The position numbers and the translations under genes are program-made. This document shows positions 5,597-37,182 of a stretch of DNA of 55,120 nt, piece by piece. Source of the stretch: an uncultured Caryophanales bacterium (GTDB taxonomy: Bacteria > Bacillota_I > Bacilli_A > RFN20 > CAG-826); contig CAMYVX010000007.1 in NCBI GenBank assembly GCA_947302535.1, positions 1-55,120 of the forward strand, in the 5' to 3' direction. How positions within the stretch are numbered: the stretch's first letter is position 1; each line of letters opens with the position of its first letter. Below the pieces are notes generated by a model. That model did not search any database, was not told the DNA's origin, and was given only the letters and a program-made list of their open reading frames with translations.

Positions 5597-6096
5597 ACTT
5601 CTTTCTCCTTTTTCTTTTTCTCATATAAATAAATAATAAGGAAAACAATTAAAAATGTTATCGTATAACCAAGAAAGTCAATCATCACATCACTAAACTG
5701 TCCACTTCTTCCAGGAACAAGTAATTGAATGATTTCGCTTAAAGATGCCCAGAAAAGACCAAACACCAAACTAATAGAGATTAAATAATAAAACTTGTAC
5801 CACTTTTTCTTATTAATAAGAAAATATATTGATAATGTTGAAAAAATACCACTTACAAAGAAAAAACCAAAGTGGCCGACAAGTTTTCTAATGACACCTT
5901 TAAATTGATCTCTATTAGAGTTAGTAACAGCAGTAGGATTAAATGTATTAACAACATTCTCCACAACAGTGGCTACTCGAGATGATTGTGTGGATGAACG
6001 ATATCCATTAAAACAAGAATAAACAATAATAAGCGTATTAATAGCAACCGCTAATGAATAGATAATAATGTGAATTGCGAGTGTCTTTTTATTCAT
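5575..6096 (-). CDS. VanZ-like family membrane protein
   Basis: 173 residues, with a membrane segment near the N-terminus and three more in the C-terminal two thirds. The VanZ signature is visible: KLVGHFGFFFVSG followed by the conserved SEIIQLLVPGRSGQFSDVMIDFLGY stretch (E-x-x-Q-x6-GR-x3-D-x3-N/D). VanZ confers low-level teicoplanin resistance in enterococci; the function of most homologues is unknown. There is a long extracytoplasmic loop between the first two membrane segments. It abuts gpsA (stop and start share base 6096) and overlaps ldh, so it sits in a gpsA-vanZ-ldh transcript. Confidence 0.8.
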   Translation of the reverse strand: MNKKTLAIHIIIYSLAVAINTLIIVYSCFNGYRSSTQSSRVATVVENVVNTFNPTAVTNSNRDQFKGVIRKLVGHFGFFFVSGIFSTLSIYFLINKKKWYKFYYLISISLVFGLFWASLSEIIQLLVPGRSGQFSDVMIDFLGYTITFLIVFLIIYLYEKKKKEKEVCLLNEK

Positions 6097-7082
6097 TATT
6101 CACTAATTTGTTTTCTATCAAATAACTCACTAACAGCTACTAAAGGTTTTTTGCCTTCATAGATTACAGAGTAAACAGCATTGACAATAGGCATTTCTAC
6201 ATTAAGCTTCTTAGCCAATTGTTTCGCGGAAACTAATGCATTAATACCTTCGACAACCATACCAACTTGCTTAAGTGTTTCTTCTAGGCAAACACCTTTT
6301 CCAAGAAGCACACCAGCATTATGGTTACGAGAATGTAAAGAAGTCGCTGTCACGACAATATCTCCAATACCAGCTAAACCATAGAAAGTGGTTTCTTTGC
6401 CACCATAGGCTAATCCTAAACGTGTAATCTCTGTTAAGCCACGTGTGATGATTGCGGCTTTAGCATTATCTCCAAATCCCATACCATCAGACATACCAGC
6501 GGCTAAAGCGATAATGTTCTTAAGAGCGCCACATAATTCGACAGCTTTAATATCGGTGTTTGTATAAACACGTAAGACTTCATTAGAGAAGGCTTTTTGA
6601 ATAACCTTTGCTATTTCAATATCACTGCAGCTAGAAACAATTAATGTCGGTTGACCAATTGCTACTTCTTCAGCATGAGTCGGCCCAGATAAAGCTACAA
6701 CTTTAATATCTTTACCTAATACATCCTCCAAGATTTCGCTCATGCTAAATAAAGTGTTCTCTTCTATACCCTTAGCGACAGTTACTATAATCTGATCTTT
6801 ATTAATGAACTCTTTAGCGTTAATCGCTGTTTGGCGAATAAAAACAGAAGGGACCGCAAAGATAATTACTTCTTGATTTAAACACGCTTTAGAGATGTCT
6901 GTTGTAAAAAGAATTTCTTTATTAAGTTCACATCCAGGAAGATTCTTATGAATGCGATTTTCGTTTAAATAATCAATTTCTGCAGCAAATTTACCATAAA
7001 CAACGACTTTATGGTGCATATTCGCTAACATGTTGGCTAGGGCTGTTCCCCAAGTGCCACTACCTAAAATTCCAATTTTCAT
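6096..7082 (-). CDS. gpsA: NAD(P)-dependent glycerol-3-phosphate dehydrogenase
   Basis: Converts dihydroxyacetone phosphate to sn-glycerol 3-phosphate, the backbone for phospholipids. 328 residues, standard length. It begins with the Rossmann motif GILGSGTWGTALA. AVPSVFIRQ, ALSGPTHAEE and the C-terminal ELCGALKNIIALAAG segment with the catalytic lysine are all conserved. No Shine-Dalgarno precedes the ATG. Instead a TATAAT box ends 6 nt before it (7089-7094), so the mRNA is predicted to be leaderless. The upstream rubredoxin terminator isolates it from the redox operon. Confidence 0.96.
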   Translation of the reverse strand: MKIGILGSGTWGTALANMLANMHHKVVVYGKFAAEIDYLNENRIHKNLPGCELNKEILFTTDISKACLNQEVIIFAVPSVFIRQTAINAKEFINKDQIIVTVAKGIEENTLFSMSEILEDVLGKDIKVVALSGPTHAEEVAIGQPTLIVSSCSDIEIAKVIQKAFSNEVLRVYTNTDIKAVELCGALKNIIALAAGMSDGMGFGDNAKAAIITRGLTEITRLGLAYGGKETTFYGLAGIGDIVVTATSLHSRNHNAGVLLGKGVCLEETLKQVGMVVEGINALVSAKQLAKKLNVEMPIVNAVYSVIYEGKKPLVAVSELFDRKQISE

Positions 7083-7088
7083 GGAAAC

Positions 7089-7094
7089 ATTATA
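7089..7094 (-). promoter_or_regulatory. -10 box of a predicted leaderless gpsA promoter
   Basis: TATAAT on the minus strand is followed by GTTTCC and then ATG. With initiation normally 6-7 nt after the -10 box, transcription would start at the A of ATG. The -35 region is T-rich and poor. Confidence 0.7.
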
Positions 7095-7102
7095 AAAGAT
7101 TC

Positions 7103-7133
7103 AAACAAAAAAATAAACGGGATTAAACCCGTT
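7103..7133 (-). terminator. Terminator after the rubredoxin gene
   Basis: A 6-bp stem AACGGG/CCCGTT (7116-7121 and 7128-7133) is followed on the minus strand by TATTTTTTTG. It closes the glpA-like to rubredoxin operon immediately before the gpsA promoter. Confidence 0.85.
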
Positions 7134-10705: not shown

Positions 10706-12148
10706 CTATTTATTATCCTTAATCTTTTCAACAAGAATTTCGCTTCCGTCATTATCTAAAGGTATAGCTAATGGGGATACTCCATAATGCTTTGCTAACA
10801 ACAAGACGATTCGTGGTTGGCAGAATCCACCTTGACATTTTCCAAAACCTGCACGTGTTCTTCTTTTTAAAGCTTTAACGCTGTAAGGAGGACAACTACG
10901 AGAAAGAACATCTTTAATTTCTCCAAGAGTAACTTTTTCGCAGTTACAGATAACATCACAATAATCATGATTATCTTTTAAGAAGTCATTGGAGTCTTTT
11001 AATAGTTCATTATATAAACGATGATATCTTCTCACACGAGGGTTGAAATCATCTTTTTCTTTCAATTGAATTAAAGGGCGAATCAAAGATTCGACAACAT
11101 ATTTAGCAATAGCAGGAGAAGAAACTAAACCTGGTGATTCAATTCCTCCAACATTAATAAAATCATTATATTTTTTACTATGCTCAATAACAAAGTCGTG
11201 ACGAGTACATGTAGCACGCATGCCTGAAAAAACACGAATTACTTGATTAAATGGAATACTCGGAACCATGCCTGTCGCTCCGGTTCTAACCATATTCAAA
11301 GTGTCTTTATCAGTAGAGACATCATCTCTATCTAGCACTTCTTCACTAGTAGGGCCAAGAATATAATTACCAGAGCTAGTAGGAGAAACTAATATACCTT
11401 TCCCCTTCTCATTTGGAAGAGGAAAAATAGTATGATTCACAAGGCCAGCTTTATAGTGATCAAGTATAAAATATTCGCCTTTACGAGGAGTAATTTTCCA
11501 ATCAATTCCTTCAATCATAGAAGCAATTTTATCTGAATATACACCAGCGGCATTTATAACAATTTTTGAAAAATAATCGCCTTTCGTAGTAGAAATTTTA
11601 TAATAATTATCACTTTTTGTTATATCCTCCACGCGGCAATTTCTTTCTAATTTCACTCCATTATCAATGGCATTTTCCATAGCGTGGACACATAAATTGA
11701 AAGGATCAACAATGCCAGCGCTTTTAGCTAACAATGCTCCTTTAACTATTGGATTAATATTTGGTTCAAGTTTTTTAACTTCTTCACCGGTAAGCAATTC
11801 AACATCGACACCATTTTGTTTAGATCTTTCTTGTAATGATTTAAGCAAAGGTAATTGCTCATCATATAAAGCCACGGTTAAAGAACCAATGCGATAAAAA
11901 GGAACATCAAGTTCATCACACAAAAGGTCAAACATTTTATTTCCTTCGACATTAAATCTTGCTTTTAATGTACCAGGAACGGGATCATAGCCAGAATGAA
12001 CAATCGCGCTATTGGCATTTGTGGTTTTATTGCCAACATCGTTCTCTTTTTCCAAAACTAAAACATCTAAATTATATTTAGATAATTCTCTAGAAATCAT
12101 CGCGCCGACAATACCAGCGCCTATAATAATCACATCGTGACAAATCAT
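10706..12148 (-). CDS. FAD-dependent glycerol-3-phosphate dehydrogenase, GlpA-like with BFD-type [2Fe-2S] domain
   Basis: 480 residues from the chosen ATG (12148). The N-terminal FAD motif is GAGIVGAMISREL, with the DAO-family substrate domain through about 370. A C-terminal BFD-like domain follows, with CNC and CQGGFC cysteine pairs expected to hold a [2Fe-2S] cluster. It oxidises sn-glycerol 3-phosphate to dihydroxyacetone phosphate in the cytoplasm or at the membrane face. The frame stays open to a TTG at 12172, but that extension overlaps a TATAAT box, so 12148 (seven bases after the box) is the better start and predicts a leaderless mRNA. It is first of five genes ending with rubredoxin. 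Confidence 0.88.
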   Translation of the reverse strand: MICHDVIIIGAGIVGAMISRELSKYNLDVLVLEKENDVGNKTTNANSAIVHSGYDPVPGTLKARFNVEGNKMFDLLCDELDVPFYRIGSLTVALYDEQLPLLKSLQERSKQNGVDVELLTGEEVKKLEPNINPIVKGALLAKSAGIVDPFNLCVHAMENAIDNGVKLERNCRVEDITKSDNYYKISTTKGDYFSKIVINAAGVYSDKIASMIEGIDWKITPRKGEYFILDHYKAGLVNHTIFPLPNEKGKGILVSPTSSGNYILGPTSEEVLDRDDVSTDKDTLNMVRTGATGMVPSIPFNQVIRVFSGMRATCTRHDFVIEHSKKYNDFINVGGIESPGLVSSPAIAKYVVESLIRPLIQLKEKDDFNPRVRRYHRLYNELLKDSNDFLKDNHDYCDVICNCEKVTLGEIKDVLSRSCPPYSVKALKRRTRAGFGKCQGGFCQPRIVLLLAKHYGVSPLAIPLDNDGSEILVEKIKDNK

Positions 12149-12155
12149 TAAATAC

Positions 12156-12184
12156 ATTATATACAATATCAAAGATGATATGAA
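12156..12184 (-). promoter_or_regulatory. Promoter of the glpA-like/flavo-diiron operon
   Basis: TTCATA (12179-12184) and TATAAT (12156-12161) on the minus strand are 17 bp apart. The ATG at 12148 lies 7 nt after the -10 box with no Shine-Dalgarno, a leaderless arrangement. Confidence 0.7.
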
Positions 12185-24025: not shown

Positions 24026-25630
24026 TTATTTTCTTTCCATTAATACAGCGGCTGGGACTTTTGGTAAGCCTGGCATTGTCATAATTTTACCAGTCAAAGC
24101 AACAAGGAAATTAGCACCAGCAGATAATCTAATTTCTCTAATAGTCACAGTGAATCCGGTAGGAGCATTTAACACTTTAGGATCATCAGTCAAGGATTGT
24201 GGTGTCTTAGCGATACAGATAGGAGTTTTATCATACCCAATGGCCTTAAATTCTTCGATTTGTTTTAAAGCTAAATCAGAATAAACAACATCACCGGCAC
24301 CATAAATTTCCCTGCAAATTGTGTCTATTTTTTCTTTAATCGGCATATTTACATCATATAAAGGAGCATAGTGAGATGCTTCTTTTTCTAACACTTCTTT
24401 AACTTTCTTAGCGATTTCTACGCCACCAATACTGCCTTCGCTATAGGAAGAACAGAACGCATATTCATAACCTTCTTGTTTACACCAATCACATAGGGCT
24501 TTAGTTTCTTTTGCACTATCACTTTCAAAATGATTGATGTTAATGACAACAGGAATATGGTACTTTTTCATATTCTCCATGTGTTTCTTTAAGTTAGCTG
24601 TTCCAATCAATAAGGCTTCGACATTTTCTTTATCAAGTTCTTCAAATGGTTGACCACCATGAAGTTTCAACGCTCTAATAGTTGCAACCATGACAACGCA
24701 ATCTGGATGTAAATTCCCAACTCGACATTTAATATCAAGGAATTTCTCCGCACCAAGGTCAGCACCGAATCCGGCCTCTGTTAAGACAATAGGTGCTAAC
24801 TTCAAAGCAAGCTTTGTGGCCATCAAAGAGTTGCATCCGTGAGCAATATTAGCAAATGGCCCGCCATGAATAAATACAGGATTCTCTTCTAAAGTTTGCA
24901 CTAAGTTCGGTAAAAGTGCTTGTTTCATTAATTTCATGATGGCGTTAGAGATTTCTAATTGCCCTAAACGAACAGGATTATTATCAAAGTCATAAGCAAC
25001 GATAATATCTTTAACACGCTTTTTAAAATCATCCGCATCACTTGCTAAACATAAAATCGCCATGAGTTCAGAAGCAACAGTAATGACAAATTCATCATGA
25101 CGCGGAGTTCCTTTTTTCTCATCTTGCATAACAGTCACACTTCTTAAAGCGCGATCATTCATATCTAAAGCTCTTTTCCAAAGAATTCTCTCTGGATTAA
25201 TCCTTAAAGAATTACCTTGGAAAATATGATTATCAATAACTGCAGAAATTAAGTTAATGGATGAAGTTAATGCATGCATATCTCCAGTAAAATGAAGATT
25301 GATATCTTCACTAGGAATAACCGAAGCTTTTCCTCCACCAGTGGCTCCACCTTTTAAGCCGAATACAGGTCCTAAAGATGGTTCTCTTAAACAAAGCAAA
25401 GATTCTACTCCAATACGACGTAAACCATCATGAATAGCAATAGATGAAGTAGTTTTTCCTTCACCAACTTTAGTGGGTGTAATCGCGGTTACCAAAACTA
25501 GCTTTCCATCTTTTCTATCTTTGATTTTATCAAACAAAGAATAATCGATTTTGGCTTTGTCGTTTCCATAAGGAATGACGTATTCTTTCTCAATATTAAT
25601 CTTTTTAGCGATGTCATAGATGTTTTTCAT
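24026..25630 (-). CDS. fhs: Formate-tetrahydrofolate ligase
   Basis: 534 residues from ATG 25630. It makes 10-formyl-tetrahydrofolate from formate, THF and ATP, feeding purine and fMet-tRNA synthesis. The P-loop TPTKVGEGKTTSSIA and the downstream GLKGGATGGGKASVIP, FTGDMHAL and NIAHGCNS segments are characteristic. A GTG at 25642 could extend the frame by four residues, but that GTG overlaps the SD GTGAGGG for the ATG, so the shorter form is preferred. It overlaps miaA by 17 nt. A stand-alone Fhs is common in anaerobic Bacillota. Confidence 0.95.
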   Translation of the reverse strand: MKNIYDIAKKINIEKEYVIPYGNDKAKIDYSLFDKIKDRKDGKLVLVTAITPTKVGEGKTTSSIAIHDGLRRIGVESLLCLREPSLGPVFGLKGGATGGGKASVIPSEDINLHFTGDMHALTSSINLISAVIDNHIFQGNSLRINPERILWKRALDMNDRALRSVTVMQDEKKGTPRHDEFVITVASELMAILCLASDADDFKKRVKDIIVAYDFDNNPVRLGQLEISNAIMKLMKQALLPNLVQTLEENPVFIHGGPFANIAHGCNSLMATKLALKLAPIVLTEAGFGADLGAEKFLDIKCRVGNLHPDCVVMVATIRALKLHGGQPFEELDKENVEALLIGTANLKKHMENMKKYHIPVVININHFESDSAKETKALCDWCKQEGYEYAFCSSYSEGSIGGVEIAKKVKEVLEKEASHYAPLYDVNMPIKEKIDTICREIYGAGDVVYSDLALKQIEEFKAIGYDKTPICIAKTPQSLTDDPKVLNAPTGFTVTIREIRLSAGANFLVALTGKIMTMPGLPKVPAAVLMERK

Positions 25631-26507
25631 ATTTTCCCTCACTTACATCTTTAATTAATGCTTCTTTATCTTGATAATGAATGGCGTCAAATTGATGGTT
25701 GAAGAAGGTAAATTGTCTCTTAGCGTAATTACGGCTTCTCTTTTTAATCAATTCAATACATTCTTCTAAACTGATTTGTTTATCTAAATAAGTTATAACT
25801 TCTTTATAACCAATCGCTGCTTTCGCGGTTAAAGAGAGATTATATTTATTTAATAAATATTTTACTTCTCTTATAAGCCCATTCGCAAACATTTTATCGA
25901 CTCTTTTATTGATATTTTCATACAAAATGTCTCGGGGTGTATCAATCATTAAAAACACAACATCATCATAAATAAGGTGGTGCTTTTGTTCTGCTTCAAT
26001 TTCACTCTTATTTTTATCTTGAGTTAAAGCTATACTTAACGCTCTTAATACTCTTTTACGATTATGAGGATGAATCTTTAAAGCGGACTCCTTGTCTAAA
26101 GATAAAAGCTCCTTATATAATTCCTCATCATTTTTTAAAGAGAATTGACTCATATCGAAAGGTATTTCTTCATTGAATACATAATCATATAAAGCGGCTT
26201 TAATATATAATCCAGTACCACCACAAACAATGATGTTGTTATAGGTTTTGCTTAACAAAGACAATGTCTTTCTAAAATCATCCTGATAATCTTTAACAGA
26301 ATAAGTTTTTTCAGGAGAACAAATATCTAATAGATAATGCTTTTTATAATTTGGATCATCGCTAGATATCTTTGCTGTTCCAATATTCATTTCTTGATAT
26401 ATTTGAAAAGCATCCCCATTAATAATAGGGGCTTTTAATAAATCCGCTAAACGGATTGCTACTTCTGTTTTTCCACTACCAGTTGGACCAATGATGACAT
26501 AAATCAT
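25614..26507 (-). CDS. miaA: tRNA dimethylallyltransferase
   Basis: 297 residues. The P-loop GPTGSGKTEVAI is at the N-terminus, INGDAFQIYQEMNIGTAK carries the DSxQ-like catalytic aspartate region, and VVCGGTGLY-type and KRSRNYAKRQFTFF segments bind prenyl donor and tRNA. It adds an isopentenyl group to A37 of tRNAs reading UNN codons. MiaB, encoded just upstream in the same direction, then methylthiolates this base. No Shine-Dalgarno; TATAAT sits 6 nt before the ATG, after a terminator closing the miaB-ricA transcript. Confidence 0.95.
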   Translation of the reverse strand: MIYVIIGPTGSGKTEVAIRLADLLKAPIINGDAFQIYQEMNIGTAKISSDDPNYKKHYLLDICSPEKTYSVKDYQDDFRKTLSLLSKTYNNIIVCGGTGLYIKAALYDYVFNEEIPFDMSQFSLKNDEELYKELLSLDKESALKIHPHNRKRVLRALSIALTQDKNKSEIEAEQKHHLIYDDVVFLMIDTPRDILYENINKRVDKMFANGLIREVKYLLNKYNLSLTAKAAIGYKEVITYLDKQISLEECIELIKKRSRNYAKRQFTFFNHQFDAIHYQDKEALIKDVSEGKYEKHL

Positions 26508-26513
26508 AGTATG

Positions 26514-26519
26514 ATTATA
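26514..26519 (-). promoter_or_regulatory. -10 box of a predicted leaderless miaA promoter
   Basis: TATAAT on the minus strand is followed by CATACT and ATG, with no ribosome-binding site between. TTGACT directly precedes the box, so a canonical -35 at 17 bp is not present; the recognised -35 is unclear. Confidence 0.68.
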
Positions 26520-26531
26520 GTCAATAAAATA

Positions 26532-26555
26532 TAAAAAGCGAAACTAAATTTCGCT
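26532..26555 (-). terminator. Terminator after ymdB-miaB-ricA
   Basis: A 7-bp stem AGCGAAA/TTTCGCT with a 5-nt loop, followed by TTTTTATA on the minus strand, overlaps the ricA stop region. Only 36 nt separate ricA from miaA, and they contain both this terminator and the miaA promoter. Confidence 0.88.
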
Positions 26556-33818: not shown

Positions 33819-34544
33819 ATGAAAGAATTAGAAAAAGCAATTAAACGAAATAATCACCTCGTCTTCATGGATTTTGAAGGGACACAATATAGTGCGGAAA
33901 TGATTGCCATTGCCGCGATTAGTGTTGTGCTTGATAAGAAAGGTCGTATCAAAAGCAAAAAGCCCCCTATCACTATCTATGTTAAAGCCAAAAACAAGAT
34001 TGGCTCTTTTGTAACAGACTTAACAGGTATCACAGAAGAAACGCTTATTAAAAAAGGTGTTTCATTTTTAGAAGCGATGAACATGTTTAAGAAATATGTT
34101 GGTCATAGTTTTAACAAATCTACATTCATCACTTATAACAATCACGATATGAGAATTCTCTCTCAATCAATAGCCTACAATTTAGATTATCCAAAAGAGA
34201 TTTGCTCGAAAATACAAAAGAATTACCTAGATTTTGCTGCTTTTTTAGATAATTACATTAGGGATACAAACGGAAATCAATTATCCTTAGTTCATGCTTG
34301 TGAACTTTTTGGGCTCCCTCTTGCGGTGCCTGCTCATGATCCTGCAAACGACACAATTAACTTAATGAATTTGTATGAAGCTTTTATTTCGCATCCAGAA
34401 ATCGTAGCTCATGAATATAAAAAGAATTTATCAAAATTCAAACATCTCCCTAATCCAATCAAGAAGGTCGTAAATAAACTCAATGAAGGCCAAGATGTGA
34501 GCGTGAATGATTTTGATAATTATATAAAGGAAGATTTAGAGTGA
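33819..34544 (+). CDS. DEDDh-type 3'-5' exonuclease domain protein
   Basis: 241 residues. The exonuclease motifs are in order: Exo I FMDFEGT with Asp and Glu (about 18-22), Exo II in YNNHDMRIL, and Exo III AHDPANDTINL with the catalytic His and Asp. This resembles the KapD/DnaQ-like group that trims RNA or DNA 3' ends. No polymerase or helicase domain is attached. No Shine-Dalgarno is present; TAGACT lies 6 nt before the ATG, so a short or absent leader is likely. It overlaps recU by 4 nt and ends in TGA. The substrate is unknown. Confidence 0.82.
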   Translation: MKELEKAIKRNNHLVFMDFEGTQYSAEMIAIAAISVVLDKKGRIKSKKPPITIYVKAKNKIGSFVTDLTGITEETLIKKGVSFLEAMNMFKKYVGHSFNKSTFITYNNHDMRILSQSIAYNLDYPKEICSKIQKNYLDFAAFLDNYIRDTNGNQLSLVHACELFGLPLAVPAHDPANDTINLMNLYEAFISHPEIVAHEYKKNLSKFKHLPNPIKKVVNKLNEGQDVSVNDFDNYIKEDLE

Positions 34545-36419: not shown

Positions 36420-37106
36420 TTACTTTATCATTTTTAAAGGATATTTAATATTAAATAAGGAAAAACTTTTTTTAATATCTTCTTCATTGATATTTTTCAT
36501 CTTCCTAATTTCTTCTTTTATCTTCTCTTCGTTTAATTCATTTACTAAATAAGAATAGCGTTTCATAGCTTTCTCTAGCTTCTTATCATAAGAATATCCA
36601 TAGGTTAAAGAGAACCTAATAGCGCGAATAATTCTTAATGGATCTTCATTAAATCTTTTACGGCAATTCCCAATCATTCTTAGTTTATTTGCTTTTAAAT
36701 CTCTTTGTCCGTGATGGTAATCAATAATTTGAAGAGCACTAGATAAATACATCGCATTAAGTGTAAAATCACGTCTTCTAGAATCAACACGTTTAGATTT
36801 AATAAACTTGATAGTCTTAGGATGACGATGGTCATCGTACCCACTTTCTTTTCTTAATGTTACGATATCAAACTTTACGTCATCAAAAAATAATTTAACA
36901 GACCCCATTCTGGCAAAAGTAAAATCTGCCTTATATTCTTTTAAGAATTCTTTCATCTCCTCAGGGGTGGCATCGCTCACAGCGTCCATATCTGTTAATG
37001 GTATGGCGGAAAGATGATCTCTAACCGTACCACCAACTAGATAAAGGTGATGGTTATTCTTTTCAAATAAATCCGCTAATTTTAAGAATGAATCAATTTT
37101 GCTCAT
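36420..37106 (-). CDS. CCA-tRNA nucleotidyltransferase-like protein, half length
   Basis: 228 residues against about 400 for Bacillus CCA enzymes. The class II head is intact: LVGGTVRDHL, the Asp-x-Asp metal site in LTDMDAVSDATPEE, and SRRRDFTLNAM. The neck motif with the NTP template is present (NEDPLRIIRAIRF, ED-x2-R). The protein ends soon after, without the body and tail domains that hold the tRNA elbow. There is no frameshift sign; the stop is followed by dnaD 7 nt on. It may be a minimal CCA-repair enzyme or a relative with another nucleotide-adding role. TATAAT lies 6 nt before the ATG without an SD, predicting a leaderless mRNA. Confidence 0.82.
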   Translation of the reverse strand: MSKIDSFLKLADLFEKNNHHLYLVGGTVRDHLSAIPLTDMDAVSDATPEEMKEFLKEYKADFTFARMGSVKLFFDDVKFDIVTLRKESGYDDHRHPKTIKFIKSKRVDSRRRDFTLNAMYLSSALQIIDYHHGQRDLKANKLRMIGNCRKRFNEDPLRIIRAIRFSLTYGYSYDKKLEKAMKRYSYLVNELNEEKIKEEIRKMKNINEEDIKKSFSLFNIKYPLKMIK

Positions 37107-37112
37107 GAATAC

Positions 37113-37118
37113 ATTATA
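37113..37118 (-). promoter_or_regulatory. -10 box of a predicted leaderless cca promoter
   Basis: TATAAT on the minus strand is followed by GTATTC and ATG. It follows directly on the terminator of the upstream lipoprotein gene. Confidence 0.7.
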
Positions 37119-37134: not shown

Positions 37135-37161
37135 TAAAAAAGAACACGGCGAACCGTGCTC
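37135..37161 (-). terminator. Terminator after the lipoprotein gene, UUCG loop
   Basis: On the minus strand GAGCACGG/CCGTGTTC with a stable TTCG tetraloop is followed by TTTTTT. Confidence 0.95.
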
Positions 37162-37182
37162 TTATATTCCTAATTACTTAAA

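Follow-up and report, generated by a model that had tools for sequence, protein, structure and literature searches.

Genes with a TATAAT box directly before the start codon

The window, i.e., the whole 55,120-nt stretch of DNA that was analyzed, contains four minus-strand genes in which a TATAAT box ends 6 nt (gpsA, miaA and cca-like; TATAAT-N6-ATG) or 7 nt (glpA-like; TATAAT-N7-ATG) before an ATG start codon. All four sites, which the first-pass annotation had reported as lacking a Shine-Dalgarno (SD) sequence, were found in place. The gpsA gene (6096..7082, minus strand; ATG at 7082) encodes an NAD-dependent glycerol-3-phosphate dehydrogenase (Pfam PF07479/PF01210/PF20618) and is predicted to be leaderless, with its -10 box at 7089..7094 (site TATAATGTTTCCATG, 7080-7094). 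The glpA-like gene (10706..12148, minus strand; ATG at 12148), also predicted to be leaderless, encodes an FAD-dependent oxidoreductase with a DAO and a BFD-like domain (PF01266, PF04324), and its box is located at 12156..12161 (site TATAATGTATTTAATG, which ends with the ATG at 12146-12148). The other two predicted leaderless genes are miaA (25614..26507, minus strand; PF01715), which encodes a tRNA dimethylallyltransferase and keeps its layout in orthologs, and a cca-like gene (36420..37106, minus strand; PF01743) for a nucleotidyltransferase with a polyA_pol head domain. Their boxes lie at 26514..26519 (site TATAATCATACTATG, 26505-26519) and 37113..37118 (site TATAATGTATTCATG, 37104-37118), respectively. 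The first T of the box is 12 nt upstream of the start in gpsA, miaA and cca and 13 nt upstream in glpA, and no SD 4-mer was found at -20 to -4 upstream of any of the four.

Three of the four genes had been described as sitting directly behind a terminator, and this was borne out for gpsA, miaA and cca, each with a terminator hairpin and T-run immediately upstream, and not for glpA. The hairpin upstream of gpsA (7116..7133, minus strand) is AACGGG-TTTAAT-CCCGTT followed by a T-run, and the aligned -35 position of gpsA overlaps its end. Those upstream of miaA (26537..26555, minus strand) and cca-like (37140..37163, minus strand) are AGCGAAATTTAGTTTCGCT and AAGAGCACGG-TTCG-CCGTGTTCTT, respectively, each with a T-run.

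As the start codons of the four genes are themselves predictions, we considered that they had been mis-called, such that the true starts lie downstream behind SD sites and TATAAT gives an ordinary leader. However, the N-terminal Pfam domains open near residue 1 (PF01210 from residue 2 in gpsA, IPT from residue 2 in miaA and DAO from residue 5 in glpA), and ortholog starts mostly fall within 1-2 codons of the ATGs of gpsA, miaA, cca and glpA. Because the domain positions and the ortholog starts agree, the ATGs, judged from sequence, are the natural starts of the four genes, and mis-calling is exceedingly improbable.

The cca-like protein has only 228 aa, and its Pfam match is the polyA_pol head domain alone. 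Usual CCA-adding enzymes are longer than this protein. Orthologs of the family are mostly similar short open frames of about 200-270 aa.

Three further genes in the window had been proposed as near variants of the layout, and they proved weaker. The leaders of licD, with a box at N10, and argS would be about 3-12 nt long, and the exonuclease at 33819 has only TAGACT as its box and a G at -1.

Spacing of the box relative to gene starts

Within the window, the raw count of the motif was not significant (4 vs 1.84 expected; 9 of 100 shuffles reached 4), and the relaxed TANAAT-N6-ATG was at expectation (7 vs 7.0). Raw counts, which are blind to gene starts, were dropped as a test, and the position relative to gene starts was used instead. 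The sample comprised the window and 400 kb of the same genome (455 kb, about 39% of the 1.17-Mb genome; 399 ORFs). When TATAAT was placed relative to in-frame ATGs in these ORFs, spacings N0 to N8 were found in 0, 2, 0, 0, 0, 0, 9, 6 and 1 ORFs, so that N6 and N7 together accounted for 15 ORFs where the other spacings predicted 1.45 (P about 5e-11). The window alone had N6 or N7 in 4 of about 52 ORFs vs 0.19 expected (P about 5e-5), and the 206 ORFs with their own upstream region had 13 vs 1.3 expected. With relaxed boxes, the N6/N7 excess amounted to 8-13% of these 206 ORFs, perhaps the leaderless share among genes of this type. GTG or TTG starts in the 399-ORF sample did not exhibit a clear N6/N7 peak.

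The first-pass annotation had offered, as grounds for abandoning its reading, a spacing no commoner than chance; at gene starts the spacing is about tenfold in excess, although the raw window count by itself is unremarkable. Its statement that most other genes have strong AGGAGG-like sites was overstated, since an SD-like site precedes a candidate start in 210 of the 399 ORFs vs 68 in a shifted control. A search of the draft genome for the 16S rRNA, whose anti-SD was of interest, came up empty.

TATAAT is common in a genome of 34% GC and could happen to fall near ATGs by chance. The unremarkable raw count in the window fits this, as does the number of genome-wide TATAAT-N6-ATG matches (31 in 1.17 Mb) that lie away from gene starts, since only about half open a real gene. 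Yet the peak is sharp and confined to N6/N7, and the same spacing recurs in orthologs whose upstream sequence is unrelated. Chance is highly improbable as an explanation and is refuted for the set by the N6/N7 peak, while any single site could still be a chance match. Elsewhere in the genome, N6-led genes identified by eye from their N-termini include look-alikes of dCMP deaminase, DNA polymerase IV, IspG and MntP.

Conservation in orthologs and promoter register

Orthologs were drawn from the family's other genera, giving 120 upstream regions (cca, n = 30; miaA, n = 30). Among all 120, TANNNT was found at N6 in 42 and at N7 in 14, compared with 0-12 at the other spacings, and the 42 N6 starts were all ATG. 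TANNNT stood exactly 6 nt before the ATG in 18 of the 30 cca orthologs and in 14 of the 30 miaA orthologs, with 5 more miaA orthologs at N7 and the remaining spacings close to background. The layout of gpsA is poorly conserved, many of its orthologs being SD-led or operonic, close behind another gene. A terminator lies in front of 27 of the 41 predicted leaderless miaA/cca orthologs vs 2 of 19 other orthologs, and the terminator sequences upstream of cca and miaA differ between orthologs and are often unrelated. The layout is non-randomly spaced, used across the genome and conserved in other genera.

In the glpA-like orthologs (upstream regions L260-L289), TATAAT-like boxes are located 6-11 nt before the ATG without an SD, which suggests that these genes may be leaderless or have ultra-short leaders of a few bases.

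To place the promoter, A of the ATG was taken as +1. Among the 15 genome-wide N6 gene starts, T was present at -35 in 13/15 and at -34 in 13/15, C or T occupied -1 in 15/15, and no extended -10 (TGn) was seen. In 39 ortholog N6 cases, T was present at -35 in 26/39 and at -34 in 26/39 (P 0.002 each), and C or T at -1 in 37/39 vs 42/59 orthologs without the layout (P 0.004). The match to TTGACA at -35 was weak overall (mean 3.5/6 vs 3.05 shuffled), though T at -35 and -34 was enriched in register. As SD-led starts favor T at -1 too (T or C in 81 of 110), the pyrimidine at -1 is only supportive. The T's of the -35 region and the pyrimidine at -1 count as supporting evidence that A of the ATG would be +1. 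Together with the uniform ATG starts and the N6 spacing kept across genera, they favor the earlier proposal that transcription begins at this A.

The -10 box could also be real with initiation usually a few nucleotides off the A, which would give an ultra-short leader or a slightly truncated mRNA. The N7 cases and licD (N10) fit such a continuum, as do the SD-less N6-N11 boxes of the glpA orthologs, and in M. pneumoniae, transcripts whose leaders do not exceed 8 nt have been called 'leaderless-like' (PMC10568206). However, the spacing of cca and miaA is concentrated at N6, and taking A as +1 puts the -35 T's and the -1 pyrimidine in register. We therefore consider such short-leader promoters improbable.

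Distribution among related genomes

The spacing preference was further compared between genomes by counting TATAAT-N{6,7}-ATG against N{3,4}. The counts were 82 vs 40 in the own genome, 1535 vs 1197 in 22 genomes of the same family (reversed-pattern control, 857/864) and 1927 vs 1771 in 16 genomes from other families of the order. In small samples of single relatives (26-100 kb), an N6-7 peak was present in G005, G017, G022 and G013 and absent from G002, G029 and G032. When 129 genomes of the class were tabulated, the N6-7 excess was found mainly in families f25, f22 and f1 (the own family), with ratios of 1.50, 1.46 and 1.39, respectively, and the own genome ranked 11th of the 129. In the class-wide draw, f11 and f18 had a weak excess and most other families were at about 1. 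Based on the larger excess in f25 and f22, leaderless use appears to occur in separate lineages.

Proposed mode of expression

Taken together, gpsA, miaA, cca-like and glpA-like are very probably leaderless genes transcribed from sigma-A-type promoters. These promoters would presumably be read by the housekeeping sigma factor; their -10 box stops 6 (or 7) nt short of the start codon, and their weak -35 box, 17 bp above the -10, often lies within the tail of the preceding operon's terminator. Transcription would start at the A of the ATG or at most one base away from it. The ribosome would then initiate on the 5'-terminal AUG without an SD, probably in the form of an undissociated 70S carrying initiator tRNA, a route suggested by work in other bacteria. 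A more tentative and rather unlikely idea is that selection keeps leaderless initiation for particular genes, here cca and miaA with their role in tRNA maturation, in the form of a compact, insulated cassette of terminator, promoter and AUG; this would free them from SD-dependent control or let their translation differ under stress.

Comparison with known leaderless systems

Leaderless genes have been predicted in 56 of 209 Firmicutes genomes, at an average of 4.2% (range 2.4-16.6%) of genes, and are concentrated in Lactobacillales and Mycoplasma, with five Mycoplasma genomes averaging 18.3% (Zheng et al. 2011, PMC3160421). Because of these predictions, the view that such use is notable for Bacilli was only partly right. 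Our literature search, which covered few subscription journals, yielded no publication on such genes in Erysipelotrichia-type Bacilli. The phenomenon belongs to a known type, no description of which was found for this lineage, and its density fits earlier values: the relaxed-box estimate for ORFs with their own upstream region falls inside the Firmicutes range of genes (PMC3160421). What is new is the host family, together with the finding that individual terminator/promoter/ATG cassettes are conserved across genera; this gene-by-gene conservation of a compact cassette is of more interest than the density. An uncultured gut/rumen Bacilli family would thereby join the lineages with substantial leaderless expression and provides a comparative data set in which the leaderless state of one gene can be traced across genera. 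Leaderless starts may be misplaced by gene-calling programs built around an SD.

In low-GC genomes, the boxes of leaderless genes are of the TATAAT type, and TA-led genes include those of Lactococcus/Streptococcus, Oenococcus/Leuconostoc and Mycoplasma (PMC3160421). The genes described here resemble them in placing TANNNT/TATAAT about 12 nt ahead of the start, in lacking an SD and in using the TATAAT form of low-GC Firmicutes. They differ from that set in their host, an uncultured Erysipelotrichaceae-labelled Bacilli family that is not named there, and in the conserved cassettes of cca and miaA, and from Lactococcus in having no TG before the -10 (PMC3160421). As in Deinococcus-Thermus (PMC12340547), the -10 box adjoins the ORF and is predicted to drive a leaderless mRNA, whereas the phylum is different and, in the genome studied here, a weak -35 signal can be discerned 17 bp further up. 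Nine transcripts of M. gallisepticum appear to be leaderless (PMC4245973). In M. pneumoniae, 16% of transcripts are leaderless-like and are translated as well as leadered genes (PMC10568206). The genome studied here shares with M. pneumoniae, a small-genome, low-GC relative, the very short, here predicted, leaders, but differs from it in SD usage: an SD is present in only 8.1% of M. pneumoniae genes (PMC10568206), and an SD-like site in about half of the sampled ORFs here.
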